Shown here: positions 2,058 through 25,400 of the stretch, in pieces
How the letters are laid out: each line of letters begins with the position of its first letter
Position numbering within the stretch: the stretch's first letter is position 1
DNA from: a virus
Length of the DNA stretch: 26,429 bases
Virus record (IMG/VR): IMGVR_UViG_3300025310_000212
Span: 1 to 26,429 of that record
Strand: one strand, 5' to 3'
Notes under the pieces: model-generated
Seen by the model: the letters and a program-made list of their open reading frames with translations, nothing else
The model's database searches: none
Told to the model about the DNA's origin: nothing
Made by a program: the position numbers and the translations under genes

Positions 2058-3569
2058 TCAGGTGATCACGCCCATGCGACGCAGGGGATACGGATGGCAG
2101 ACGCGGGCCGGAGGCAGCCACGACTCGATGAGCCGGCGCATGCGGTCCCAGGACACCCGGCCGTTCTGGCTTCGGCGCCCGAGGGCGCGGTGCCAGAGCC
2201 AGGCCACCCGGAAGCGGAACGCGCTCAGCGCCCGGCCGTTCATGGGAACCCCGTAATAACGAAGATGTCCCTGAACCACCGAGCGCAGCCACTGCCCCAC
2301 GGCGGGAATCGGATCGTGCCAGCGTCGCCGAAGCTCGGCCTTGACCTCGCTCAGCTTGGCCTGCAACCTTTTTCGCATCGTCTGCCGAAGCACCGTGAAC
2401 CTCCCGTTCCTCTTCTTCCCACAGATGTGGCTAAAGCCGAGGAAGTTGAAGGTCTCCGGCTTGCCCCGACCTCTACGCCGCCGGTTCTCGGCCGCGAACG
2501 GCCCGAATTCCAGCAGGCAGGTCTTGTCGGGGTGCAGCTCCAGGTGGAACTTTTGGAATCGCTCCTTCAGTTCCGCCAGGAACCGCTCGGCCTCGGACTT
2601 GTGCTGGAATCCAACGATGAAGTCGTCCGCGTAACGCACGACGATCATGTCGCCCTGCGCGTGCTTCTGTCTCCACTGTTGGACCCACAGGTCGAACACG
2701 TAGTGCAGGTAGAGGTTCGCCAGGAGCGGCGATGCGCTGCCGCCCTGCGGCGTCCCGACCTCGCTGCGTGTCCGCGTCCCATCCTCCAGCACGCCGGCGT
2801 TCAGCCATTTCTGGATGAGCCGCACGACGCGCTGGTCCGCGACGCGGTGCTCGACGAACTTCACCAGCCAGCCGTGGTCGATGGTGTCGAAGAACCCACG
2901 GAGGTCGGCATCGAGCACCCAGTTCACCTTTCTCGTCAGCAGCCCCGTGTAGAGCGCATCCAGCGCATGATGTTGGCTGCGTCCCGGTCGGAACCCGTAC
3001 GAGAAGCCCAGGAAGTCGGTTTCGTAGATGGCGTTCAACACCTCGACCGTAGCCCGCTGGACGATCTTGTCTTCCAGCACGGGCACGCCGAGCGGCCGTT
3101 GCCGCCCGTCGGCCTTGGGGATGTACACCCTGCGAACCGGCCTGGCCCGGTACGCTCCACGCCTGAGCCGTTCGGAGAGGTCGCGGAGGTTCTCCGCCAA
3201 CGCCTCGCCGTAGGCTCGCCACGTCTGCCCGTCCACGCCCGGTGCGGCGTCTCGCTTCAAGGCGAAGTACGCCTCCCGGAGCCTGTCCAGGTTGTAGACG
3301 TGGTGCAGGAGCGCGGTGAACCGCATCTTCCTGTCCCTTCTTGCCGCTTGACGTATCCGCTCCAACGCACTGGGCATGCCGGGGGCGGCGCTGTGTCCGA
3401 TGGGCATGTTTTGTTGGGGCGGATTCCCTTTGGCCAGACCCCTTCCCTCCGTCCCCTCCGCCGCCGGTCCGCCCTTGGCAGCGCGAAGCGCTGTTGTGGG
3501 TCCGCCGCCGTTGTTCGGGGACTTCGCAGGTACTACGGGCCTGTCCGACTTCCCGGGTCCGTGCATCAT
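2058..3569 (-). CDS. ltrA: Group II intron-encoded reverse transcriptase/maturase
   Basis: A 503-residue reverse transcriptase. It aids splicing as a maturase and copies the intron RNA into target DNA during mobility. Visible motifs are APGVDGQTW, VYIPKADGRQRPLGVPVLED, the GFSYGFRPGRSQHHALDAL block, DADLRGFFDTIDH, GTPQGGSASPLLANLYLHY, the catalytic VVRYADDFIVGF, and NFLGFSHICGKK. The maturase/X region follows (SVVQGHLRYYGVPMN, VAWLWHRAL, WLPPARVCHPYP). No HNH endonuclease domain is present. The core family begins near MRFTALLHHVYNL, so the first ~80 residues are a Gly/Ala/Pro-rich extension and an internal Met may be the true start. The end is odd: related proteins as I remember them finish with a Gly/Arg-rich tail, while this one stops at LRRMGVIT. 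The YADD active site is intact. Confidence 0.93.
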   Translation of the reverse strand: MMHGPGKSDRPVVPAKSPNNGGGPTTALRAAKGGPAAEGTEGRGLAKGNPPQQNMPIGHSAAPGMPSALERIRQAARRDRKMRFTALLHHVYNLDRLREAYFALKRDAAPGVDGQTWRAYGEALAENLRDLSERLRRGAYRARPVRRVYIPKADGRQRPLGVPVLEDKIVQRATVEVLNAIYETDFLGFSYGFRPGRSQHHALDALYTGLLTRKVNWVLDADLRGFFDTIDHGWLVKFVEHRVADQRVVRLIQKWLNAGVLEDGTRTRSEVGTPQGGSASPLLANLYLHYVFDLWVQQWRQKHAQGDMIVVRYADDFIVGFQHKSEAERFLAELKERFQKFHLELHPDKTCLLEFGPFAAENRRRRGRGKPETFNFLGFSHICGKKRNGRFTVLRQTMRKRLQAKLSEVKAELRRRWHDPIPAVGQWLRSVVQGHLRYYGVPMNGRALSAFRFRVAWLWHRALGRRSQNGRVSWDRMRRLIESWLPPARVCHPYPLRRMGVIT

Positions 3570-3940
3570 CGGCGTGTGTCCTTGGACTTCCCGATGCGTC
3601 CCGCGGCCCCATCAACCGCGGGTGGACGCGGGATCTCCCGGTTCTCGCGCGAGGTGTTTCCGTACATGCACGGGGTCTCTGACCGCGCGGGGCTCCGTCG
3701 CAGCTCGCGCTCGCGCTGCGCCGGATGTGGCCTTCCGCCTTCTCCTACGGCGTCGGCGCCCCGGAGGGAATTCCTTTCGCGGCTGAATACCCGGCCTGCA
3801 CGTACCCCTGTCAACGCTTCGGCGACGCCCTCGCGGGCGTCTCCGCATGACTCGGGGCCGCTGTGGGCCGCTAACCCTTCAACGTATGACTCTTTCATTC
3901 ACGACACCTCGCCGGTTTAGCCCGGCGCACAGGAGAACGA

Positions 3941-9968: not shown

Positions 9969-11342
9969 ATGAACGTTGAACTGCGGCCGCTGGCCGAGAT
10001 CAAGCCGTACGAGAAGAACCCGCGCATCAACGACGCGGCGGTGGACGCCGTGGCCGAGTCGATCCGCCGGTTCGGGTTCCGCCAGCCGATCGTGGTTGAT
10101 GGCGACGACGTCATCGTCTGCGGGCACACGCGCTGGAAGGCGGCGCAGAAGCTGGGGCTGGACAAGGTGCCCGTGCATGTCGCGCGCGACCTGACGCCCG
10201 AGCAGATTCGCGCCTACCGCATCGCCGACAACAAGACCAACGAGCTGGCCGAATGGAATCTGGAACTTCTGCCGATCGAGATGGCCGAGCTGCGCGACGC
10301 CGGCATCGACTGGTCGCTGCTCGGTTTCGACGCCGACGATTTGGCGAAGCTGTTCGATGCCGCCGACGGCGTGAAGCAAGGGCTGACCGATCCGGACGAC
10401 ATTCCGGCGCCGCCGGATGAAGCGACAACGCAGCCCGGCGATTTGTGGCTGCTTGGCGACCACCGGCTGCTCTGTGGCGACGCCGGCACCGTGGCAGACG
10501 TCGACCGGCTGCTCGGCGGTCAGCCGGTTCACCTCGTGAACACAGATCCGCCCTACAACGTGCGCGTCGAGCCGCGCAGCAACAACGCGATCGCGGCTGG
10601 CCTCTCCTCCTTCGGCGAATCAGGGCTCATGCACCACCAGAGCTTTGACGTCGCCCGACAGGGCATCAAAAGCGCAACTACGGCGAAGCTTCGCCCCAAG
10701 GACCGCCCACTGGCCAATGACTTCGTCAGTGATGAGGCATTCAACGAAATGTTGCACGCGTGGTTCGGCCAACTGGCCCGCGTGCTGCTGCCCGGGCGCG
10801 GCTTCTACATCTGGGGCGGCTACGCGAACATCGGGAACTATCCACCCGTGCTGAAGGCCTGCGGGCTCTACTTCTCGCAGGCGATCATCTGGGTCAAGGA
10901 GCATCCCGTCCTCACGCGCAAGGACTTCATGGGTAACCACGAATGGTGCTTCTACGGCTGGCGCGAGGGCGCGGCGCACGTCTACCTGGGCCCGAACAAC
11001 GCGACTGATGTCTGGTCGGTCAAAAAGGTCAACCCGCAATCCATGATCCATCTCACCGAGAAACCCGTCGCGCTGGCGCTGCGGGCGATGCAGTATTCGT
11101 CGCGTCCGGGCGAGAACGTGCTCGACCTGTTTGGCGGCAGCGGCTCGACGCTGATCGCGGCGGAGCAGACCGGCCGGCGAGCGTTCCTGATGGAGCTCGA
11201 CGCGCTCTACGCAGATGTCATCGTTCAGAGGTGGGAGAAGTTCACGGGTCGGAAGGCGGAACGCGTTCGCGCTGATGGACGGGACTCTCCGGCCGAAGAC
11301 ACAGCGCCGGTTGTTGCCGACGCTGTGGAGGGGGGTGCGTGA
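9969..11342 (+). CDS. ParB-like domain fused to DNA methyltransferase
   Basis: A 457-residue phage DNA-modification protein. Residues 1-~95 form a ParB/sulfiredoxin-type domain (LAEIKPYEKNPRINDAAVDA, QPIVVDGDDVIVCGHTRWKA, RIADNKTNELAEW). After an acidic linker comes an N6-adenine/N4-cytosine methyltransferase: catalytic motif TDPPYNV near residue 190, and the SAM-binding DLFGGSGSTLIAAEQTGR near 386. The order (DPPY before FGGSG) is that of the beta class. HLTEKPVALALRAM lies just before the SAM motif, as in related enzymes. The start has GGAGG 8 bases upstream. No restriction nuclease is nearby, so an orphan, self-protecting or regulatory methylase is likely. The target site cannot be read from the sequence. 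It converges on the next gene with an 8-base gap. Confidence 0.9.
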   Translation: MNVELRPLAEIKPYEKNPRINDAAVDAVAESIRRFGFRQPIVVDGDDVIVCGHTRWKAAQKLGLDKVPVHVARDLTPEQIRAYRIADNKTNELAEWNLELLPIEMAELRDAGIDWSLLGFDADDLAKLFDAADGVKQGLTDPDDIPAPPDEATTQPGDLWLLGDHRLLCGDAGTVADVDRLLGGQPVHLVNTDPPYNVRVEPRSNNAIAAGLSSFGESGLMHHQSFDVARQGIKSATTAKLRPKDRPLANDFVSDEAFNEMLHAWFGQLARVLLPGRGFYIWGGYANIGNYPPVLKACGLYFSQAIIWVKEHPVLTRKDFMGNHEWCFYGWREGAAHVYLGPNNATDVWSVKKVNPQSMIHLTEKPVALALRAMQYSSRPGENVLDLFGGSGSTLIAAEQTGRRAFLMELDALYADVIVQRWEKFTGRKAERVRADGRDSPAEDTAPVVADAVEGGA

Positions 11343-12334: not shown

Positions 12335-12362
12335 GCGGGTCTCCTTATGCTTGCCTCGTCAG

Positions 12363-12404
12363 GCCCGGGTCTCACGCGCCCGGGCGACGCGGGCGAGGCC
12401 CGCG
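12363..12404. terminator. Two adjacent perfect GC hairpins between leftward genes
   Basis: GCCCGGG (12363-12369) pairs with CCCGGGC (12379-12385), and CGCGGGC (12388-12394) pairs with GCCCGCG (12398-12404) around GAG. They lie just after the stop of the zinc ribbon gene and just before the HARE-HTH gene, both leftward. There is no T-run, so an attenuator or mRNA-stabilising structure is as likely as a terminator. Confidence 0.45.
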
Positions 12405-12415
12405 TTTCGGCGGCG

Positions 12416-12957: not shown

Positions 12958-13194
12958 GTGATAGGCGCGCCTGACAACCGTTCAGCGGGCCAGCCGGGTC
13001 TGAACCCAACGGCGCTGTCGCTGGCGGAAGCCGGCCGGCTGCTCAGCGCGGCCGGCGGGCAGCGGATTGATGTCGAGATGCTGACTGCGGACGTCGCGGC
13101 CGGTGCGCCGACCAACGCGGACGGCACGCTCAATCTGGTCCACTACGCCGCGTGGCTGGTCCGCGAAGCGGCGGGAGGCGAGCGTGGCGATTGA
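12958..13194 (+). CDS. Small terminase-like protein (possible TerS)
   Basis: A 78-residue protein starting at a GTG that lies 8 bases after GGGAGGA and overlapping the large terminase gene by 11 bases. I do not recognise the family, but its layout (LNPTALSLAEAGRLLSAAGG ... DGTLNLVHYAAWLVREA) resembles the N-terminus of the next protein (LKPTELVRLLN ... DGRSVDLLRYVAWLALER). Such short helical DNA-binding proteins before a large terminase often serve as the small subunit that picks the packaging site. That role is inferred from position and from the apparent relationship to the large subunit's N-terminal domain. A longer reading from 12892 adds 22 unsupported residues. Confidence 0.68.
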   Translation: MIGAPDNRSAGQPGLNPTALSLAEAGRLLSAAGGQRIDVEMLTADVAAGAPTNADGTLNLVHYAAWLVREAAGGERGD

Positions 13195-15454
13195 CCCGCG
13201 CAAGCTGAAGCCGACCGAGCTGGTCCGCCTGCTGAACTCGACGCCGCTCGGCGAGGTGATCAGCGAGCGCCAGCTCCACCGCCATCGCTCGCGCGCGGGG
13301 TTTCGCATCGGCGACGGACGGTCGGTCGACCTGCTGCGCTACGTCGCATGGCTGGCGCTGGAGCGGCACCGCCCGCGCCCGGAGCCCGAAGGTTTGACCG
13401 GCTACGACGCCCACAAAGAGCGGGCGAGGCAGCGGAACATCGAGCTGTCGCTGTCGGGCCGCGACATCGGCGAGCTGCCTGCCGTCGCGAACCCGGATCG
13501 ACGGGCGCGGGCCGAAACTGACTTCCGCTTCTTCTGCGAGCAGTACCTCCCGCAGACGTTTCACTTGCCCTGGTCGCCGGACCACCTGAAGGTCGTCGCC
13601 AAGATCGAGCAGGCGGTCCTCGAAGGCGGACTGTTCGCGATGGCGATGCCGCGCGGCAGCGGGAAGACGTCGCTATGCGAGACGGCGTGCGTCTGGGCGC
13701 TGATCTATGGGCACCGCGAGTTCGTCGCGCTGATCGGCAGCGATGAAGAGCACGCCGCCAACATGCTCGATTCGATCAAGGTCGAGCTGGAAACCAACGA
13801 CGCGCTGCTGGATGACTTCCCCGAGGTAGTCTTCCCGATCCGCGCCCTCGAGGGAATTCACCAGCGCGCTGCCGGCCAGCTTTACCAGGGAAAGCAGACG
13901 CACATCGGCTGGACCGCGAAAGAGATCGTGCTGCCGACGATGCCCGGCAGCCGGGCGAGCGGCGCGATCATCTGCGTGGCTGGAATCACGGGCCGCATCC
14001 GCGGGATGAAGCACAAGCGCGTGGACGGGACGTCCGTACGTCCGTCGCTCGTGCTTATCGACGACCCGCAGACGGATGAATCCGCACGGTCGCCGTCGCA
14101 GTGCGCTGCACGCGAGCGCATCCTCGCCGGCGCGATCCTGGGCCTGGCCGGGCCGGGGCGGAAAATCGCGGGGCTGATGACGCTCACCGTGGTGCGGCCC
14201 GACGATTTGGCCGATCGCATTCTTGACCGCGACAAGCACCCACAGTGGCAAGGCGAACGCACGAAGATGGTCTACGCCTGGCCGACGAGCGAATCGCTGT
14301 GGGCACGGTACGCCGAGATCTGGCGTGAGGGTATGCGGGCCGACCGCGGCATGGCCGAGGCGACAGAGTTCTATCGCGCCAACCGCGAGGCGATGGACAC
14401 CGGCGCCGTCATCGCCTGGACGGAGCGGCACCATCCGGACGAGCTGTCGGCAATCCAGCATGCGATGAATCTGAAGCTCGATCGCGGCGAGGCCGCGTTC
14501 TGGGCCGAGTATCAGAACGAGCCGCTGCCCGAGGAGCACGCGGACGACGAGCTGCTCACCGCCGACCAGATCGCGGCGAAGGTCAACGGCTTACGACGCG
14601 GCGAAATCCCGATCGGCGCGACGCATGTCACGATGTTCATCGATGTGCAGGCCAAGGCGCTGTTCTGGCTCGTCGCGGCGTGGGAGGACGACTTCACGGG
14701 GTACGTGCTGGATTGCGGCACCGAGCCCGATCAGAAGGCGGAGTATTTCACCCTGCGCGATGTGCGCCGCACGTTGGCGATGGCAGCGCCACGCGCCGGC
14801 ATCGAAGGCGCCATCTACGCCGGCCTGGAGCGGCTGACCGAACGCACGCTGGGGCGCGAGTGGCCACGCGACGACGGCGCCAAGGTGCGCATCGACCGTT
14901 GCCTGATCGACGCGAACTGGGGCCAGTCGTCGGACGTTGTGTATCAGTTCTGCCGGCAGAGCCGGTTTGCAGGGGTGCTGCTGCCGAGCCACGGCCGGTA
15001 CGTCGGCGCGTCGTCGATCCCGTTCAGCGACTACAAGCGGAAGCGCGGCGACCGCGTCGGGCTCAACTGGCGCATCCCGGTGGTGACCGGACGGCGCACA
15101 GTCCGCCACGTCGTCTTCGACACGAACTACTGGAAGAGCTTCGTCCACGCGCGCCTGGCCGTGCCCATGGGCGATCCGGGAGGCCTGTCACTCTTCGGGC
15201 GCAAACCGGAAACCCATCGCTTGCTCGCGGAGCATCTCACGAGCGAGTACCGCGTGAAGACGGAGGGCCGTGGGCGGACGGTGGACGAGTGGAAGCTTCG
15301 CGTCGATGGGCTCGATAACCACTGGCTCGACTGCCTCGTCGGCTGCGCCGTAGCCGCGTCGATGGGCGGCGCTGCGCCCCCCGGGCTCGTAGGCGACGCA
15401 CCCAAGCTGCGACCCAGCGTGCGGCTGTCGGAACTGCAGAGGTCGAGACGGTGA
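13184..15454 (+). CDS. Phage terminase large subunit
   Basis: A 756-residue packaging motor/nuclease of GpA-like style, which cuts concatemeric phage DNA and pumps it into proheads. After an N-terminal helical domain (residues ~1-65) similar to the preceding small protein, the ATPase has Walker A PRGSGKTS near residue 156 and Walker B LVLIDDPQTD near 290. The C-terminal nuclease half contains MFIDVQAKALFWLVAAWEDD, FTGYVLDCGTEPDQ, CLIDANWGQSSDVVYQFCRQ, SSIPFSDYKRKRGDRVG, and DNHWLDCLVGCAVAASM with late acidic residues. The start is the GTG at 13184 behind GGGAGGCG; an ORF from 13103 would overlap more of the previous gene. It opens the packaging/head module followed by portal and capsid. Confidence 0.92.
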   Translation: MAIDPRKLKPTELVRLLNSTPLGEVISERQLHRHRSRAGFRIGDGRSVDLLRYVAWLALERHRPRPEPEGLTGYDAHKERARQRNIELSLSGRDIGELPAVANPDRRARAETDFRFFCEQYLPQTFHLPWSPDHLKVVAKIEQAVLEGGLFAMAMPRGSGKTSLCETACVWALIYGHREFVALIGSDEEHAANMLDSIKVELETNDALLDDFPEVVFPIRALEGIHQRAAGQLYQGKQTHIGWTAKEIVLPTMPGSRASGAIICVAGITGRIRGMKHKRVDGTSVRPSLVLIDDPQTDESARSPSQCAARERILAGAILGLAGPGRKIAGLMTLTVVRPDDLADRILDRDKHPQWQGERTKMVYAWPTSESLWARYAEIWREGMRADRGMAEATEFYRANREAMDTGAVIAWTERHHPDELSAIQHAMNLKLDRGEAAFWAEYQNEPLPEEHADDELLTADQIAAKVNGLRRGEIPIGATHVTMFIDVQAKALFWLVAAWEDDFTGYVLDCGTEPDQKAEYFTLRDVRRTLAMAAPRAGIEGAIYAGLERLTERTLGREWPRDDGAKVRIDRCLIDANWGQSSDVVYQFCRQSRFAGVLLPSHGRYVGASSIPFSDYKRKRGDRVGLNWRIPVVTGRRTVRHVVFDTNYWKSFVHARLAVPMGDPGGLSLFGRKPETHRLLAEHLTSEYRVKTEGRGRTVDEWKLRVDGLDNHWLDCLVGCAVAASMGGAAPPGLVGDAPKLRPSVRLSELQRSRR

Positions 15455-15941: not shown

Positions 15942-16012
15942 CGCGGGATGGTGTAACGGCAACATGCCGGCCTCATTCGCCGGAGCCGCGGGTTCGAATC
16001 CCGCTCCCGCAA
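15942..16012 (+). tRNA. tRNA with CAT anticodon (Met-like), atypical
   Basis: A 71-base cloverleaf. The acceptor arms are CGCGGGA (15942-15948) and TCCCGCA (16005-16011), the anticodon stem is CCGGC/GCCGG (15967-15971, 15979-15983), and the T arm is GCGGG-TTCGAAT-CCCGC. The loop CTCATTC places CAT at 15974-15976. The C1-A72 mismatch is the hallmark of bacterial initiator tRNA, but the anticodon stem lacks the full three-G run. Position 37 is a U, which is very rare. It may be a phage tRNA-Met/Ile2-like molecule, a degenerate tRNA, or a tRNA mimic. It lies between two head-region genes. Confidence 0.82.
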
Positions 16013-16761: not shown

Positions 16762-18249
16762 GTGCTGAAGTGGCTGCGACAAATCGTTTCACAGAAAGCG
16801 GCGGTCGCCACGGCGCCAGTACCTGCTCGCGTGCTCGTCGTGCGCGGCAAGTACGACGCCGCTCAGACCACGCACGAGAATCGCCGGCACTGGGCCAACG
16901 CCGATCATTTGTCCGCCAACGCCGCCGCCAGCGCCGACGTGCGGCGCATCCTCCGCAGCCGGGCACGCTACGAGGTCGCCAACAACAGCTACGCCAAGGG
17001 CATCGTACTGACGCTGGCGAACTATGTCGTCGGCACCGGCCCGCGCCTTCAGATGCTCACGGGTGATCCCGAGGCCAACCGGCTGATCGAAAAGGAGTTC
17101 GCGCGGTGGGCGAAGGCGGTTGGGCTGGCCCACAAACTTCGCACGATGCGCATCGCGCAGTGCGAGGCCGGCGAGGTCTTCGGCCTGCTGGCGACCAACC
17201 CGCGCGTCGCGGCGCCCGTGCAGCTCGACGTGCGACTGATCGAGGCCGACCAGGTCTGCACGCCGTGGCCGGCGCCGCGCAACGAGCCGAACGCCGTCGA
17301 CGGCATAGTGTTCGACGAGTTCGGGAATCCGGTCGCGTACACGATCCTTCGCCGGCATCCAGGGGACAACTCGGCATTCCGCTCGAGCGGCATCGACTAC
17401 GACGTGATGCCGATCGAATCCGTCATTCACCTGTTCCGCGCCGAACGCCCAGGCCAGAGCCGCGGTATCCCCGAGATCACCAGCTCACTGTCGCTGTTCG
17501 CCATGTTGCGGCGCTACACGCTGGCTGTGCTGGGTTCGGCCGAGCAGGCGGCGCTGCCGTCGGGCGTGATCTACACCGATGCGGCCGCGGACGCCGAAGC
17601 GTCTCAGGTCGAGCCGATGGACCAGGTCGAGATGGACCGTGGCACGTGGCTGACCATGCCGTTCGGCTGGAAGATCAATCAGGTCAAGGCCGAGCAGCCG
17701 ACGACCGTCTACGGGGACTTCAAGCACGAGGTGATCAACGAGATCGCCCGCTGCCTGAACATGCCGTTCAACATCGCCGCGGGCAACAGCTCGGGCTACA
17801 ACTACGCGTCCGGCCGACTCGACCACCAGGCCTTCTTCAAAGCCATACGCATCGACCAGGCGTATCTCGGCGACGTGGTCCTAGACCGCGTGCTCAGCGC
17901 GTGGCTGAACGAGGCCGTGCTGATCGAAGGCTACCTGCCGCAGTCAGCGCGCCTGCGCGACGCCGAGTTCCCGCACCAGTGGTTCTGGGACGGGCTGGAG
18001 CACGTCGATCCGCAGAAGGAAGCGACGGCGCACGCCACGCGCCTGACCAGCAACACCACCACGCTCGCCGCTGAGTTCGCCAAGAGCGGACTGGATTGGG
18101 AGAGCGAGCTAAGGCAGCGCGCTCGCGAGATGGCGCTCATGCGCGAACTGGGATTGGCGACGGAGCAGGCGGCGCCGGCCGCAACGAACAACGACACGGA
18201 GGACGAGGGCGATGTCACGGAAGACGCAGACGCCCGCCAGGCCGCGTGA
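16762..18249 (+). CDS. Lambda-family phage portal protein
   Basis: A 495-residue portal protein. It forms the dodecameric ring at one capsid vertex through which terminase drives DNA. Family features include the early ARYEVANNSYAKGIVLTLAN with YVVGTGPRLQ, QLDVRLIEADQVCTPW, VMPIESVIHLFRAERPGQSRGIPEITS, AEQAALPSGVIYTD, and FNIAAGNSSGYNYASGRLDH near the C-terminal third, then HQWFWDGLEHVDPQKEA. The length is normal and no frame breaks are seen. The last ~30 residues are acidic and overlap the next gene by 38 bases. The GTG start has GGAG upstream. It places this prophage among siphoviruses with lambda-like head architecture. Confidence 0.92.
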   Translation: MLKWLRQIVSQKAAVATAPVPARVLVVRGKYDAAQTTHENRRHWANADHLSANAAASADVRRILRSRARYEVANNSYAKGIVLTLANYVVGTGPRLQMLTGDPEANRLIEKEFARWAKAVGLAHKLRTMRIAQCEAGEVFGLLATNPRVAAPVQLDVRLIEADQVCTPWPAPRNEPNAVDGIVFDEFGNPVAYTILRRHPGDNSAFRSSGIDYDVMPIESVIHLFRAERPGQSRGIPEITSSLSLFAMLRRYTLAVLGSAEQAALPSGVIYTDAAADAEASQVEPMDQVEMDRGTWLTMPFGWKINQVKAEQPTTVYGDFKHEVINEIARCLNMPFNIAAGNSSGYNYASGRLDHQAFFKAIRIDQAYLGDVVLDRVLSAWLNEAVLIEGYLPQSARLRDAEFPHQWFWDGLEHVDPQKEATAHATRLTSNTTTLAAEFAKSGLDWESELRQRAREMALMRELGLATEQAAPAATNNDTEDEGDVTEDADARQAA

Positions 18250-19753
18250 GGCCGCGGAGCAGGCCCTTGACTCGCCGCCCGCGGCAAAGCCGCGCGGTCG
18301 CGTTGCGACCGGTCCGCCTTCGGCGGACGCGGCGAGTCAAGGGCAGGTTCCCGACCAGTTGTCGCTGGTATGCAGGGCCGATCGCATCACGCTCGAGGCG
18401 ATGGCGGCCGAGGGCGACGCGCCGGCGATCCCGCACTTCACGATGGTCGCCTATACGGGCGAGCCGATGCAGGTCGAGGGCTGGCGCTTCCCGGTGGTGG
18501 TCGACCTCGAAGGGCTTTCGATCCCGTCGCAGCGCCGGCCGGTGCGCTTCGGCCACAGCATGTACGCCGGCGTCGGACACACGGAACGGATCGTGGTCGA
18601 AGCCGGCCGGCTGATCGCCGAAGGAATCGTCAGCCGCGACACGGCCATCGCCCGGGAAGTCGTATCCAGCGGCAAGCGCGGCTTCCCCTGGCAGGCGTCG
18701 ATCGGCGCGCAGGTCGCCCAGGCCGAGTTCGTCCGGGCCGGGAAGTCCGTCACGGTCAACGCGAAGACCTTCGAAGGCCCCCTGTACGTCGCCCGCCGGA
18801 CGGTGTTGGGCGAGATCAGCTTCGTCGACCTCGGCGCCGACACGAACACCACCGCGACCATCGCGGCTCAGCAGCAGGAGAACGATCTCATGGACGAGAC
18901 CAACGAAACGCCGGTCACGGAGACCGAAGAGAAGAAGACGCCGGAGCCCACGCGCGCGGGCCAGACGGACGGGAATGGCAAGGAGGCCAACCCGTCCGTC
19001 AACCCGGTGACGGAGCTCCGGGCGCAGGCCGTGGCTGAGACCAAGCGCATCGCCGCCATCCGACGCATTTGCGCCGGCCGGTTCCCGGAAATCGAGGAAA
19101 AGGCGATCACCGAGGGCTGGACCGAGGAGAAAACCGAGCTGGAAAGGCTGCGCGCCTCGCGCCCGAAGGCGCCGGCCGTCCACATCTCCAATGACGCGAT
19201 GGGCGGCCAGGTCCTCGAGGCGGCGTGCCTGCTGACCGGCAAGCTCGCCAAAGTCGAGGAGCTGTACGACGAGAAGACCCTCGAAGCGGCCGCGCGGCGC
19301 TTCCGCGGCGGGATCACGCTCCAGGAACTCCTGCTCGAGGCCGCCTGGGCCAACGGCTACAACGGCCGCAACTTCCGCGACAACCGCGAGGTGGTGCGCG
19401 CCGCGTTTGGTCAGAACCTCCAAGCGGGTTTCTCGACCATCGACATCGGCGGCATCCTCAGCAACGTCGCCAACAAGTTCCTGCTGGAGGGCTTCTTCAG
19501 CGTCGAGCGCACGTGGCGGAACATCACCGCCGTCCGCAACGTCAGCGACTTCAAGACCGTCACGAGCTACCGGCTGGTGGGCAAGGATCAGTACGAGAAG
19601 GTCGCGCCCGGCGGCGAACTCAAGCATGGCACGCTGGGCGAGCCCAAGTTCACTCGTCTGGTAGATTCGGCCTCAAGAAGAGCCAGGGCGTCGGGCACCA
19701 TGAACATGGTGCCGCAGTATGCGTGCGGGTCGATCTCGATTCGGGCGATGTAG
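18212..19753 (+). pseudogene. Prohead protease/major capsid fusion, interrupted at its 3' end
   Basis: The first ~190 native residues after a low-complexity start form a U35-like prohead protease: RPVRFGHSMYAGVGHTE (candidate catalytic His), FPWQASIGAQ (candidate Ser), and VLGEISFVDLGADTNT. A charged linker follows, then the start of a gpT/HK97-style capsid domain (GFSTIDIGGILSNVANKFLL ... TVTSYRLVGKDQYEKVAPGG, then ELKHGTLGEPKFT). Capsid sequence stops near 19655, after about 481 residues. The last ~32 codons (RLVDSASRRARA...) are antisense to the serine recombinase. The missing C-terminal capsid half is expected on the far side of the inserted element. Residues ~18-44 are encoded by an 80-bp cloverleaf. 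The start lies 11 bases after GGAGG inside the portal gene. Confidence 0.85.
18264..18343. repeat. Perfect 80-bp cloverleaf (four-way palindrome) in coding sequence
   Basis: A 15-bp closing stem, CCCTTGACTCGCCGC (18264-18278) with GCGGCGAGTCAAGGG (18329-18343), has no mismatches. Inside are three directly adjacent hairpins: CGCGGC-AAA-GCCGCG (18280-18294; 6 bp), CGGTCGC-GTT-GCGACCG (18295-18311; 7 bp) and GTCCGCC-TTC-GGCGGAC (18312-18328; 7 bp). Only C18279 and the loops are unpaired. It encodes a Pro/Ala/Gly-rich linker, which fits an inserted palindromic element tolerated in frame. Confidence 0.9.
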
Positions 19754-21387
19754 GAGTGGACGAGTTGCCGCGTCTCCAGCGACGAGAGGTTGCCGTTCAG
19801 CGCGTCGCCCAGACGCTCCAGTTTCTGCGTCGCCCATTTCCGCAAGGCCGCCTGATCGAGGGTCGGACGCTCCGGTCTTGAGGCCTCTTCCTTCCGAGCT
19901 TCCAGCATCTCTCGCTGCCGTTTCAGGTCCACCAAGGTGGTTTTCAGTTCGCTCAGGTCCGCCAGGTCCGGGTCAGCCAGCATGACCACGGTGGTCTGGA
20001 TGCGCCGGTTGACCGCGGCCAGTTCCTTGTCAAACGTCGATCGATCCCCGCCGCCCTTCTGTTGGGAGAGAACGGCCCGGACGAAAGTGTCCACGGCGGC
20101 CCCCGTGCCCTCGGCGTCGTTGAGGATGACCTGCCTTACTTTGCCCAGCACCCAGCGGTCGAGTGCCTGGACCTGGATGCTCGTCGATTTACACACCCGC
20201 GGGCCGAACCGGCGGTATCCGGCGTCAACGTAATAACCACGCCGGATGCCCTTGGCATAGAGTTTCAACTCCGCGCCCCACAGGTTCAGGCCGCAATGCA
20301 TGCACTTGAGCAGTCCCGACAACAGGTATCGCCGCGTGGGCCGGGCCTTCCCCTTGGCGTCACGCCGGCGGGCCATCTCGGCCTGCGCTTTCTCGAAGAC
20401 CTCTTTGCTGACCAGCGGCTCATGCACGTCCTCGACGACGATCCAGCGGTCGCGGCTGTTCAACCCATACCCCTGGCCGCGCTTGGCGTAAGCCCGGCCG
20501 TCGGCCGCGATGCCGTGGATCTTCCCCTGCGTAGTCTTGTTCAGGCACAGCGCGCCGCGGTACACGGGATTCGTGAGGATCAGCTTGACCTCGCGGAAGT
20601 TCCATCGGCCGCCGGTTGGGCTGGGAACCCCCTCATCGTTGAAGGCGATGGCGATGTAGCGGAAGCCATAGCCCCGGGCGCACATGTCGAAGATGCGCCG
20701 GACGACCTTCACGTGCTGCGTATCGCCGGGCACATAGCGGACTAGGTCGGACTTCACCTTGCCGACGCCCTCGGCGCCGGGGATGAAGCGGACGTGCCGG
20801 CCATGTGGGTCGAACTCCTGTTTGCGGCCGTCGGGCAGATAGCGGATGGTCCGTAGGATCTGGCCGGCCGGCGTGAGGAACTGCTTGTCGTAGCCGTACG
20901 GCGCGCGGCCGCCGGGGGCGCTTCGCTTGACGCGGACGGCGGAGACCATTCCGCGGATGCAGTCGCGCGAGAGTTTCACCGAGTACTGCCTGGCCTGCCA
21001 GCTCTTGACGCCTTGAAGCAGCTCGCCCTCGTCGCCATCGGGTATGCCATCGGCGGCAAAGACCACTTCGACGCCAGCCAGGTGGAGCCGGTACACGTAG
21101 TAGCCCGTCTGGTTCGTGCCGCCGCGACTGAAGCGCGAGATGTCGTAGCAGAGGACGGCGTCGAAGTCGCGCCCGTTCTCGGCGTCGCGGATCAGCCGCT
21201 CGAAGGCCTCGCGGCCGCGGGTGGTCGTGCCGGACACGGCATCATCGGTGTACCACCGCACGATGCGGTAGCCGTGCTCGCCCGCCCAGCGCTCCACGAA
21301 CGCCTGCTGGTCGGGGATGCTCCGCTCCTGCATGTCAGTCGAGCGCCGGGCGTAACCGACCGCCTTCATCATGTCTTTCGTGGCCAC
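19588..21387 (-). CDS. Large serine recombinase (integrase)
   Basis: A 599-residue serine integrase that joins and excises an element at att sites. The catalytic domain starts with AVGYARRSTDMQERSIPDQQ, with the nucleophile Ser in YARRS, and has YDISRFSRGG with its Arg. The recombinase domain (GVKSWQARQYSVKLSRDCIR, FRYIAIAFNDEGVPSP, EVKLILTNPVYRGALCLN) and a zinc ribbon (LKCMHCGLNLWG ... RVCKSTS) follow, then a coiled-coil region (LVDLKRQREMLEARKEEA). A fourth zinc ligand is not obvious. The GTG at 21387 is chosen for CGGAG 8 bases upstream; the longer reading adds an atypical 58 residues. The last ~20 residues (NLGSPSVPCLSSPPGATFSY) are antisense to the capsid gene, so the stop codon is borrowed from the target. 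Confidence 0.92.
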   Translation of the reverse strand: MATKDMMKAVGYARRSTDMQERSIPDQQAFVERWAGEHGYRIVRWYTDDAVSGTTTRGREAFERLIRDAENGRDFDAVLCYDISRFSRGGTNQTGYYVYRLHLAGVEVVFAADGIPDGDEGELLQGVKSWQARQYSVKLSRDCIRGMVSAVRVKRSAPGGRAPYGYDKQFLTPAGQILRTIRYLPDGRKQEFDPHGRHVRFIPGAEGVGKVKSDLVRYVPGDTQHVKVVRRIFDMCARGYGFRYIAIAFNDEGVPSPTGGRWNFREVKLILTNPVYRGALCLNKTTQGKIHGIAADGRAYAKRGQGYGLNSRDRWIVVEDVHEPLVSKEVFEKAQAEMARRRDAKGKARPTRRYLLSGLLKCMHCGLNLWGAELKLYAKGIRRGYYVDAGYRRFGPRVCKSTSIQVQALDRWVLGKVRQVILNDAEGTGAAVDTFVRAVLSQQKGGGDRSTFDKELAAVNRRIQTTVVMLADPDLADLSELKTTLVDLKRQREMLEARKEEASRPERPTLDQAALRKWATQKLERLGDALNGNLSSLETRQLVHSYIARIEIDPHAYCGTMFMVPDALALLEAESTRRVNLGSPSVPCLSSPPGATFSY

Positions 21388-22078: not shown

Positions 22079-22456
22079 TCAGTCGCGCCAAATCGTGTCC
22101 GCGGGCACGCCGTTCGGGCTCCCGCTACCAATCTCTCGCCGGATGAGTGACGAACCCTTGCGGAACGCCAGTTCGTACTCGAACGCGTGGCCCTCTTCGC
22201 ACAGGAAGGAGAGCGTGATCACCACGCCACGCCCCGTGGGCGCGATAGTGGGGTCGAGGCGTAGCCCGGCCGACGTGACGAGCAGCTCCCAGGGTGCTCG
22301 TCCGGCAGGCACGACGCGGACCGCGATGGGATGCACATTCTCATGATGGCAGACGGGACACAGGAGCATTGCCTTGTCGGCACAGATGGACGCTGCCACG
22401 GGGATGTAGCTGGCGGCGAGAGCGCGCAGCAACTGCTCAAGCTTCTCGTTGAACAT
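22079..22456 (-). CDS. Hypothetical protein with possible zinc-binding site
   Basis: A 125-residue protein without a recognised family. CPVCHHENVHPIAVRVVPAG and the later FLCEEGHAFEYELAF provide Cys/His ligands compatible with one zinc site holding two beta hairpins together; the rest is mostly beta (WELLVTSAGLRL, GRGVVITLSF). The ATG at 22454-22456 is chosen because AAGGAGG lies 5 bases upstream, inside the end of the primase gene (20-base overlap); an upstream ATG would add seven residues. It is translated together with the primase/helicase and may be an accessory replication or regulatory protein. No catalytic motif is visible. Confidence 0.72.
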   Translation of the reverse strand: MFNEKLEQLLRALAASYIPVAASICADKAMLLCPVCHHENVHPIAVRVVPAGRAPWELLVTSAGLRLDPTIAPTGRGVVITLSFLCEEGHAFEYELAFRKGSSLIRREIGSGSPNGVPADTIWRD

Positions 22457-25400
22457 CACAGCCTCCTTGTTTCTCATGAGTCATCTCGGCCGCGGCCATC
22501 CGTAGCTCAGCGGCTCGTTCGGGGTAGAGGTCCGCACAGCGATCCGCGAGTTGGAGCAGGCGGTCGCGCCAGGCGCCCGGCGTCCAGCCGTCGCGGTACT
22601 GGGCGAGCTCGCGAACGGTGGGCGGAAGGTGATCCCCGTTGCCGGCGTACCATCGCACCGTTGCGGAACCCGAGGGACTCGCAGGCGGCATGGTGAACGC
22701 CGACCTTTCCACGTCCTGTCCGAAGGTCGGCGGCAGGTCGGCACCAAGGTCGGCACGCGTAACCTGTGCTTCTACAATGGGTTGCGTCCCGACGCCGACC
22801 TTTGCCGACCTTTTTCCGTTACTACGCGATCCGGCGGGAAAAGAAATCGCGCGCGTTTCATGTGCATGCGTATTACTCGCGCACGTATATGGAAGAGGGT
22901 CCCCAGAAGGTCGGCAAAGGTCGGCATTCACTCCTAACTCGTTGCCTGCGTGCGAATTACTGTCGCCGACCTTTGTGCCGACCTCATGCCGACCTTCCGG
23001 CGGCCCTGGAAAGGTCGGCAGCAGACGATAGACGAGGCGGTCCCTGTGGTCCGTCTTATCCCCGATGACCACGCGCAGCCCGGCGATAATGCAGTCCCGC
23101 TTGCGCGCCAGCCGCATCCCCAATTGCGTCACGGCCCCGCGCTGCGTCTCGCTCCGAACAACGGAAAAGAGCAGGTCGCTTCGCTGCCCATCTTTCCACA
23201 GCAACTCCGACAAGTCGCTCACGCCGACGAGAGCGTCGTGCCAGCGATCCCACCACGCATGCACGAACGCACGCCATTCCGAGGTCTCTGTGTCCGCCTG
23301 GCGCCGCAGCTCATCCGCGTTGGCCAGGAAGCCCTCGATGCCGGCTACATTGAAAATGCCGCCGACGGTCTCCGCGTAGGACTCAAAGCTCCCCATGCAC
23401 TGTCGCCCCTTCGGGCGCCCTGCGGCCAGCCACGCGCGGCCGAGTGTCAGCGCCGCGGCGACGAGCGCACTGCGCTGCTGACGGACGTGTGCGACCAAGT
23501 TCGGATGCCTGAATCCCGTCCGCTGTTCGGGTGCTTCGACCTTCGCGTCGAGCCGAATCCATACGACGCGGCGGGCGAGCTCCTTCGAGAAACTCAGGTT
23601 GTTCCCCGTGCAGCACCACACCGCCAGGTTCGGCAGCGTCAGCTCGCGCGTCTGTCCGAGCTGGCGATCTTTCCAGACGACGTCCGTGAGCACGGCGGCC
23701 AGGTGCTCGCTATCCAAGCGCTGTGCGATGTTGCCCCACACGATGGCAGGGTTGCCCGCGACAAGGGCCGACGAGATCTTCTTCCGCCATTCATCCGGAT
23801 CTTTCGCGGCCGTCATGACGCCCACCGCGTACCCGAGCGCCGGGAGCAGCGTGGCTTTGACCAGCAGGTCCTTGCCGGTTCCGGCCGTGGGTGCATCGAC
23901 CGCATGCAGCGGCGTCGGGCCATCGATGAGCGGCCGAAGGAAGGGCAGCAACATGAGCGCGATCGCATTCGCACGACTCGAAGAGTCGACGAACGGAAAA
24001 TCTGCCAGTAGGTCGAGAAACGCATTGCGCGCGGCGGCGATCTCGCCCGAGGTGGGGGAATCAGGGATCGCGGGCAGGTCCGCTAGCGTCAGATGGTGCC
24101 ATAGCCTACTGGCGCCGTCGTACCCGTCGGCAGCGATCAGGCCGCCATCGCGAGCAAACGTTGGGCATGTGATGATCGCGATCAGCGGAGGAAGATCAAT
24201 CGACGGGAGCGCCAGGACGTCGCGCGCAACCATGAGCGGCGGCACGTCGGACACCTGGAAGTCGCCTTCCTTCGTGTGTTTGAGCGTGAACCAGTCGGCC
24301 GCGTTCGTCAGCTCGCCTCGCAGGGCATCAGCGTCGAGCTGCTGGATGCACGGCGTGATTTCCTGCTGTTCGTTGGGCATCAACACGATCCGGGCAATGC
24401 CGCCGGCGCGGCTGAAGAGGCGGAACGGACTGTTCGCCTTGATCAGCGCGGCCAGTGCATCGTTGCGAATGTCACGAAGTTGACGCTCATTTCCTTGAAT
24501 GCGCGGCCGACCACTGACACCAGAAACAACCGGCATCACCGCGCCAGCGGATGGCACAGAGTCCGATGCGACGACCGCGCGCTGGCGCGGGATTTCGGGA
24601 ACGTGCAACTCCAACAGACGGCGTTCAAGCTCGGCGGGATCGACAGTCGGTTCGAGCTCCGCAACCGTCGCCGCGAAGCGTGCCCGCGCCCTGGCGCTGT
24701 CGAGATCGAGTTTGTCGCTGTAGAAGGCGCCCGTGTCCGCTAGCTGCGACCATCGGAATGTCTTCACGCTGACCTTACCGCCACGCCGCGTGCGAGGTCC
24801 TGCCATCAGCAACACCGCTGGCGGCTGAACAGCCTCAAGGAAACGCGCTCGAATCGCTGCGAGGTCCTCGTCGTCGGGCATACGCCCTACCGTCGCGAAA
24901 TGCGCGACGGCCCACGCGCGCAGATCCTTCTGCGCGTCTGGCGGATATGCCACGGGCACGGGCCAGCCCCAGGCCTCTCTGAGCTTGCCCGCAATGGCGT
25001 CGGCGCCCTCCTGACCGGGCCAGCACCCATCTGGTTTGCGATCGTTCTCACCGAGAACGATGACGCATCGATTGCGACACACCTGGGCCAGCAGTGCGGC
25101 ACCGCCTGTGTTGTTCGGCCGGCCGACCACATTGAGCCCAAGCGCGCGCCCGGCAAGAACATCGGAAGGCCCTTCCACGATGAGAACCGGATCGCCGAGC
25201 TCGCGCCAGCCGTCAGGAAGGATCAGACCCCGGCGCCCTCCAGGCATCTGACCCTTACGTCCTGTCGGCCAGCGCAGCCCAAGGCCAATGATTCGATCGT
25301 GTGCGTCGTACTCGGGAAACGTCCAACATCCAGGCTCGCCCTCGTGTTGCTGCGTTTCCGGGTTCCACCAGCGTCGCTCGGACCACCAGCCGATCGCCAA

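Follow-up and report, generated by a model that had tools for sequence, protein, structure and literature searches.

A large serine recombinase element in the capsid gene of a Planctomycetota phage, likely a helper-embedded satellite

The window analysed here, a linear fragment of 26,429 bp that makes up a whole IMG/VR record, carries from left to right the early, terminase, portal and capsid genes of one phage, followed by a block of leftward genes that begins within the capsid gene. This arrangement raises the question of what interrupts the capsid gene and how it relates to the phage. The leftward block consists, in order, of genes for a serine recombinase, a winged-helix protein, a 132-aa protein and a 1124-aa primase/polymerase-like protein and of an open reading frame cut by the contig end (Table 1). 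A first-pass annotation had proposed that the capsid gene is split by an element with a serine recombinase on the opposite strand and that the recombinase takes its last ~20 codons from the capsid antisense strand. Both claims held, with the tail measuring 17 residues and the stop codon. The right-hand 6.8 kb of the window constitutes the integrase end of a mobile element that went into a Planctomycetota (pro)phage capsid gene through crossover by a serine recombinase at the GA of codon 477. We consider this element likely to be a helper-embedded satellite, where its satellite nature, its excision and its mobilisation by the helper are inferred and its far half is unseen.

Table 1. Features of the window, with coordinates in the 26,429-bp record
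Feature	Coordinates	Strand	Basis or remark
ParB/N6_N4 methylase, helper phage	9969..11342	+	comparison with the target of related elements
Terminase large subunit (TerL), helper phage	13103..15454	+	gene-family match
Portal gene, interrupted helper phage	16762..18249	+	Phage_portal_2, 9.8e-58
Helper protease-capsid fusion gene, 5' part	18212..19641	+	codons 1-476 plus bases 1 and 2 of codon 477
Large serine recombinase (integrase), 599 aa	19588..21387	-	domain matches
Predicted crossover dinucleotide GA	19640..19641	+	bases 1 and 2 of the E477 codon GAG; TC in the recombinase sense
Recombinase-side att arm CCAGACGAGTGAACTTGGGC, 20 nt	19642..19661	-	same register as the arms of relatives
Winged-helix protein, 156 aa	21437..21907	-	HTH_27 match
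132-aa protein, family unknown	22079..22477	-	element ORF
Primase/polymerase-like replication protein, 1124 aa	22437..25811	-	homology to L125, L014 and L015
Element protein, 205+ aa, cut by the contig end	25812..26429	-	54% relative, in the same order in L125

The interrupted capsid gene and its junction

The capsid reading frame (18212-19753, plus strand) matches PHROG head and protease families (phrog_4523, 2.3e-28), and its protein is 58-87% identical to those of twelve relatives on viral contigs. All of these relatives that cover the region read on as GTLGE.AYTNKADTYGL... for about 195 residues where the window diverges, so that the cut in the window is not a natural capsid end and about 195 C-terminal codons are absent. 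Among 156 further capsid loci, a near full-length match was observed in 153 and a serine recombinase in none, and phages that naturally end their capsid protein at this position, which would have refuted the proposed split, were therefore not borne out. A search of viral contigs for the pattern of the far junction gave a single match, which was an intact distant capsid gene and not the missing junction.

Two related metagenome contigs, L012 and L013, were considered as similar splits and rejected, as their capsid neighbourhoods lack a recombinase and represent deletions or rearrangements. In these contigs (L012 6373-8011, and L013) the 3' part of the portal gene and the 5' part of the capsid gene are replaced by about 1.6 kb holding a cellular-looking open reading frame, and the capsid gene is additionally cut near its end.

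The recombinase meets the domain criteria of a large serine recombinase, or serine integrase, with a catalytic domain (Resolvase PF00239, 1.6e-24), a Recombinase domain (PF07508, 9.3e-24) and a zinc ribbon (Zn_ribbon_recom PF13408, 2e-06). The junction could be derived by comparison because the closest recombinases adjoin split genes. In the SU10-type capsid genes that are split by relatives of the element, the two ends read ...GAGGA/TGCGCTCGTATCCCGTCTGAC and TCAGACGGGTAAGCAGTGTGGA/CACGCTGCTG... (a slash marks the junction) and the uninterrupted site reads ...CTCGAAGA/CACGCTTCTTCC..., which gives a structure with a GA core between two facing 20-nt arms. The register of a 20-nt arm followed by GA/TC is also kept at two TerL sites, a methylase site, a gene of the tail region and chromosomal copies.

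We scanned the window with an att-arm weight matrix built from the arms of thirteen relatives, with the window itself left out. The best among 52,814 positions was the arm at 19661-19642 on the minus strand (14.0 bits, against 10.5 for the next best), which is followed by TC at 19641-19640, and when the scan was restricted to the 7,246 positions that have a correctly spaced GA/TC the runner-up scored 10.4. A chance match is excluded because the predicted arm scores far above the next best site, and the core is therefore placed at GA 19640-19641, with the junction at 19641/19642 and the first base of the element at 19642. The boundary near 19655 given by the first-pass annotation thus failed, being 14 bases too far right. 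By coordinate arithmetic, recombinase codons 1-582 are element DNA and codons 583-599 with the stop are the capsid antisense strand. A GA is present at the position of codon 477 in 130 of 169 relatives. The criterion for an att site, namely a short site with a dinucleotide core and inverted arms, was met, where the window shows one arm and twelve relatives show both.

These results bear on the possibility that the contig is an assembly chimera of two unrelated DNAs. In its favour, the window is a single metagenomic contig and the junction lies within a gene. However, the join sits precisely at the base that the relatives' att geometry predicts and comparable joins are seen in many separate assemblies, which leaves this explanation all but excluded.

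The phage itself belongs to a large group of prophages that are found mostly in Planctomycetota, with 170 relatives found in genome contigs, often several to a genome. The window also holds a group II intron with a reverse transcriptase (2058-3893; RVT_1, 9.3e-39; group-II-D1D4-6 match at 3673-3893, minus strand), a type II hammerhead ribozyme (12345-12412, minus strand; Rfam RF02276) that lies upstream of the gene for the terminase, and a tRNA gene at 15942-16012 between the terminase and portal genes.

The recombinase clade and its target sites

Relatives of the recombinase at 44-61% identity came from whole-genome searches. Viral contigs scanned with the recombinase as a single protein gave no match, and tblastn against phage and plasmid records returned, among the rows listed, only relatives at ~23-30% identity. 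In a maximum-likelihood tree the recombinases form one clade (support 100/99; 28 rows) with subclades that track the target site, and that of the window branches separately, close to the SU10 and tail subclades. Cousins whose recombinases are ~36% identical are located at tRNA genes.

The clade enters phage genes as a habit and occupies six sites within them, of which the four non-capsid sites fall in the window's own prophage family. Eleven Phycisphaerales cases have both element junctions at one SU10-type capsid codon: ten genomes carry both capsid halves around the element, split at codons 57-60 (G020, G024, G028, G395, G709, G440, G503, G756, G643 and G528), and contig L118, binned as G006, has both junctions at its edges. 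In G555, G672, G594, G614 and G248 the N-terminal capsid half adjoins the recombinase. Terminase genes are also entered. G424 has both TerL halves around the element together with portal and capsid genes that belong to the phage family of the window, and G392 has a TerL insertion at a different codon. The methylase gene of G025 holds two element copies, with N-terminal halves on other contigs that stop at the same codon, and G004 carries two copies in a gene that lies 2.3 kb downstream of the capsid gene in the window's phage family, is 100% identical in L019 and was found in 95 loci. The sites homologous to those in TerL (GA of codon 320 at 14060-14061 and GA of codon 385 at 14255-14256) and in the methylase gene (GA of codon 319 at 10923-10924) are empty in the window. 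The evidence was weaker for G441, which apparently has another late gene as its site, and weak for G753, possibly at the end of a capsid-like gene.

The view that all clade members reside in phage genes was rejected. G023, G814 and G924 appear to be at chromosomal sites and therefore some insertions are off-target, while the targets of G213 and G657 are unresolved. The conserved att geometry, together with the relatives that have both junctions in phage genes, supports the earlier proposal that the capsid gene serves as attB.

The SU10-type insertions also show how the elements move. Recombinases that are 92-99% identical occupy SU10 capsid genes that are only 59-81% identical to one another. 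Long-term vertical inheritance of the insertion was rejected on this ground, and near-identical recombinases in divergent capsid genes indicate that the elements cross species and re-insert at the same codon, recently and repeatedly. We also considered whether the intact capsid gene and the element contig of G006 are excised and inserted forms in one sample. This was rejected; the two capsid sequences differ and contamination of the bin is therefore probable.

Such mobility bears on a dead-end insertion, in which the element entered the capsid gene, never leaves and only kills the prophage. This account is supported by the lack of observed excision, by the known off-target chromosomal copies and by the truncated helpers that were found in the published study of Enterobacterales satellites too (PMC10111431). 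Against it, the SU10-type capsid halves are both still readable, and the recombinase genes have open reading frames that hardly differ between distant hosts, which shows the elements to be active. The dead-end account is very unlikely.

A developmental switch serving the host or the phage, like the skin element or the comK prophage, would likewise explain a late gene that is interrupted without a replacement sequence, with capsid halves that remain open at the SU10-type site. However, patchy, recent and horizontally spread insertions at several phage-gene sites appear selfish and not host-adapted, and this explanation is also judged very unlikely.

Gene content and the satellite reading

The element genes in the window are antisense to the capsid gene. 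The winged-helix protein may possibly be a regulator or a directionality factor, an assignment that is only inferred. The replication protein is unlike the helicase that elements in capsid genes carry and is similar to phage primases: it is 68-69% identical over ~1080 aa to that of L125, a tRNA-targeting cousin in G004, and 61% and 54% identical to those of L014 and L015, which are phages of the window's family. No AlpA match was found among the visible proteins of the element.

The relatives show what a complete element contains. The twelve that were measured span 10.5-11.6 kb from core to core, with facing arms and a GA/TC core at both ends. Completed relatives encode a sigma-like factor, an AAA_25 helicase, a HARE-HTH protein, the recombinase and their own protease-capsid protein, which is ~35% identical to that of the helper and belongs to the same broad family. 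The scanned element genes of relatives include none for a terminase, a portal or a tail. At their variable end these elements carry restriction-modification, methylase or trypsin-like protease genes. Such genes at the ends far from the recombinase (L221 191-3483, L214 12929-15235 and L116 1712-3565) match anti-phage defence models.

A referee might argue that the block is a complete second prophage, a competitor inserted in the capsid gene of the first. The identities of 61% and 54% that its replication protein shares with the proteins of two phages in the window's family favour this, and terminase, portal and tail genes may lie past 26429. Against it stand the small size of the twelve measured relatives, the absence of terminase, portal and tail genes from the scanned element genes, and L125, the nearest relative of the replication module, which is cut by contig ends and has no such genes in 9 kb. 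A second prophage is therefore unlikely.

We thus prefer the satellite reading. Integration within a prophage gene is met, since the target is a capsid gene with portal and terminase upstream, though by a single junction in the window. Small size without a full virion gene set is seen in the relatives, while the window covers only part of its element. The reading is limited by the contig end, past which lie the far junction and whatever capsid or cargo genes this element has. The first-pass annotation had offered a satellite or a removable switch; this proposal is the best supported, but removal remains unobserved.

In the cycle that we propose, the capsid gene would not be needed while the helper prophage is silent and the element would sit quietly in a late gene. 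On induction of the helper the element would be copied together with it as a composite, and the recombinase with an unidentified directionality factor would then excise the element and restore the capsid gene. The freed satellite may be packaged through helper functions, perhaps with its own capsid protein too. Neither an excised circle nor a re-joined capsid gene was seen for the window's element, and no directionality factor was identified.

Known systems and the reach of the clade

The helper-embedded strategy is already known from the HE-PICIs, and the earlier view that capsid genes are unusual homes for integrated elements is not quite right, as such Enterobacterales satellites in capsid genes have been published (PMC10111431). 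As an example, E. coli 11capE is an 11-kb element with its own capsid gene that resides within the helper's capsid gene in prophage 50icd, and on induction composite excision is followed by replication and then by satellite excision (PMC10111431). Likenesses to the present elements are a size of ~11 kb within a prophage capsid, terminase, portal or tail gene, an own capsid gene (here in the relatives), the absence of a replacement sequence, and one integrase clade with site-specific subclades and off-target chromosomal copies. The two groups differ in recombinase chemistry and in phylum, and antisense insertions and additional targets occur here. HE-PICIs carry AlpA and a tyrosine integrase, the only integrase type reported by Tommasini et al. 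(PMC10111431), whereas a large serine recombinase is found here; they occur in Enterobacterales, and these elements in Planctomycetota, where the targets further include a methylase gene and a conserved head module of SU10 type. The HE-PICI criteria of a tyrosine integrase of the 11capE clade and of AlpA with co-orientation to the late gene were accordingly not met. Excision has been demonstrated there and not here.

Capsid-forming PICIs and other capsid-carrying satellites are small and have their own capsid, a replication gene and an integrase without tail genes, and the same gene set is present in relatives of the window's element. Those known so far are mostly found at host chromosomal sites, whereas the present elements use a serine recombinase and are embedded in a phage gene. 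The skin element and the comK prophage use serine recombinases as well. With them the element shares the splitting of a gene by recombinase-bearing DNA and its restoration by excision, which is inferred here; it differs in that a phage gene and not a host gene is targeted and that the element itself is the most likely beneficiary.

Since recombinases of the relatives are repeatedly found in capsid, terminase, methylase and tail genes, the clade looks like a second, independently evolved lineage of helper-embedded satellites. In the open-access literature searched we found no serine-recombinase case of helper-embedded satellites, and such a lineage in Planctomycetota appears to be undescribed there. 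Life within a late gene of the helper would then have at least two origins, which differ in recombinase chemistry and lie in distant phyla of bacteria, and would therefore be a general strategy and not an Enterobacterales oddity. The clade also offers a serine integrase lineage with a clear record of site switching, where six sites in phage genes are used while the GA core and the 20-nt arm stay constant, which makes it useful for studying how integrases acquire new targets.

A bolder reading holds jointly that Planctomycetota harbour a whole independent serine-recombinase satellite lineage in head, packaging, tail and methylase genes, and that one subclade has become a specialist of the capsid gene in a phage-head module that is conserved, mostly single-copy and a candidate gene transfer agent. 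We lean slightly against accepting it as it stands. If true, insertion and excision by this subclade would switch particle production by the head module.

A candidate gene transfer agent is indicated in one planctomycete order. The SU10-type capsid protein (PF17236) was observed in 205 of 400 Phycisphaerales species genomes, mostly full length and in single copy. It is accompanied by a portal gene, a scaffold-like gene and a head gene of ~215 aa, in chromosomal contexts that are otherwise unrelated (L351-L358, L180). This head module is conserved and is possibly a domesticated phage or a gene transfer agent. Offsets 45766-48000 of G248 (C41, region 25100-104700) hold another clade recombinase, which is truncated, lies 11 kb from the first and directly adjoins the first 303 residues of an SU10-type portal, possibly as another insertion site or an inversion.
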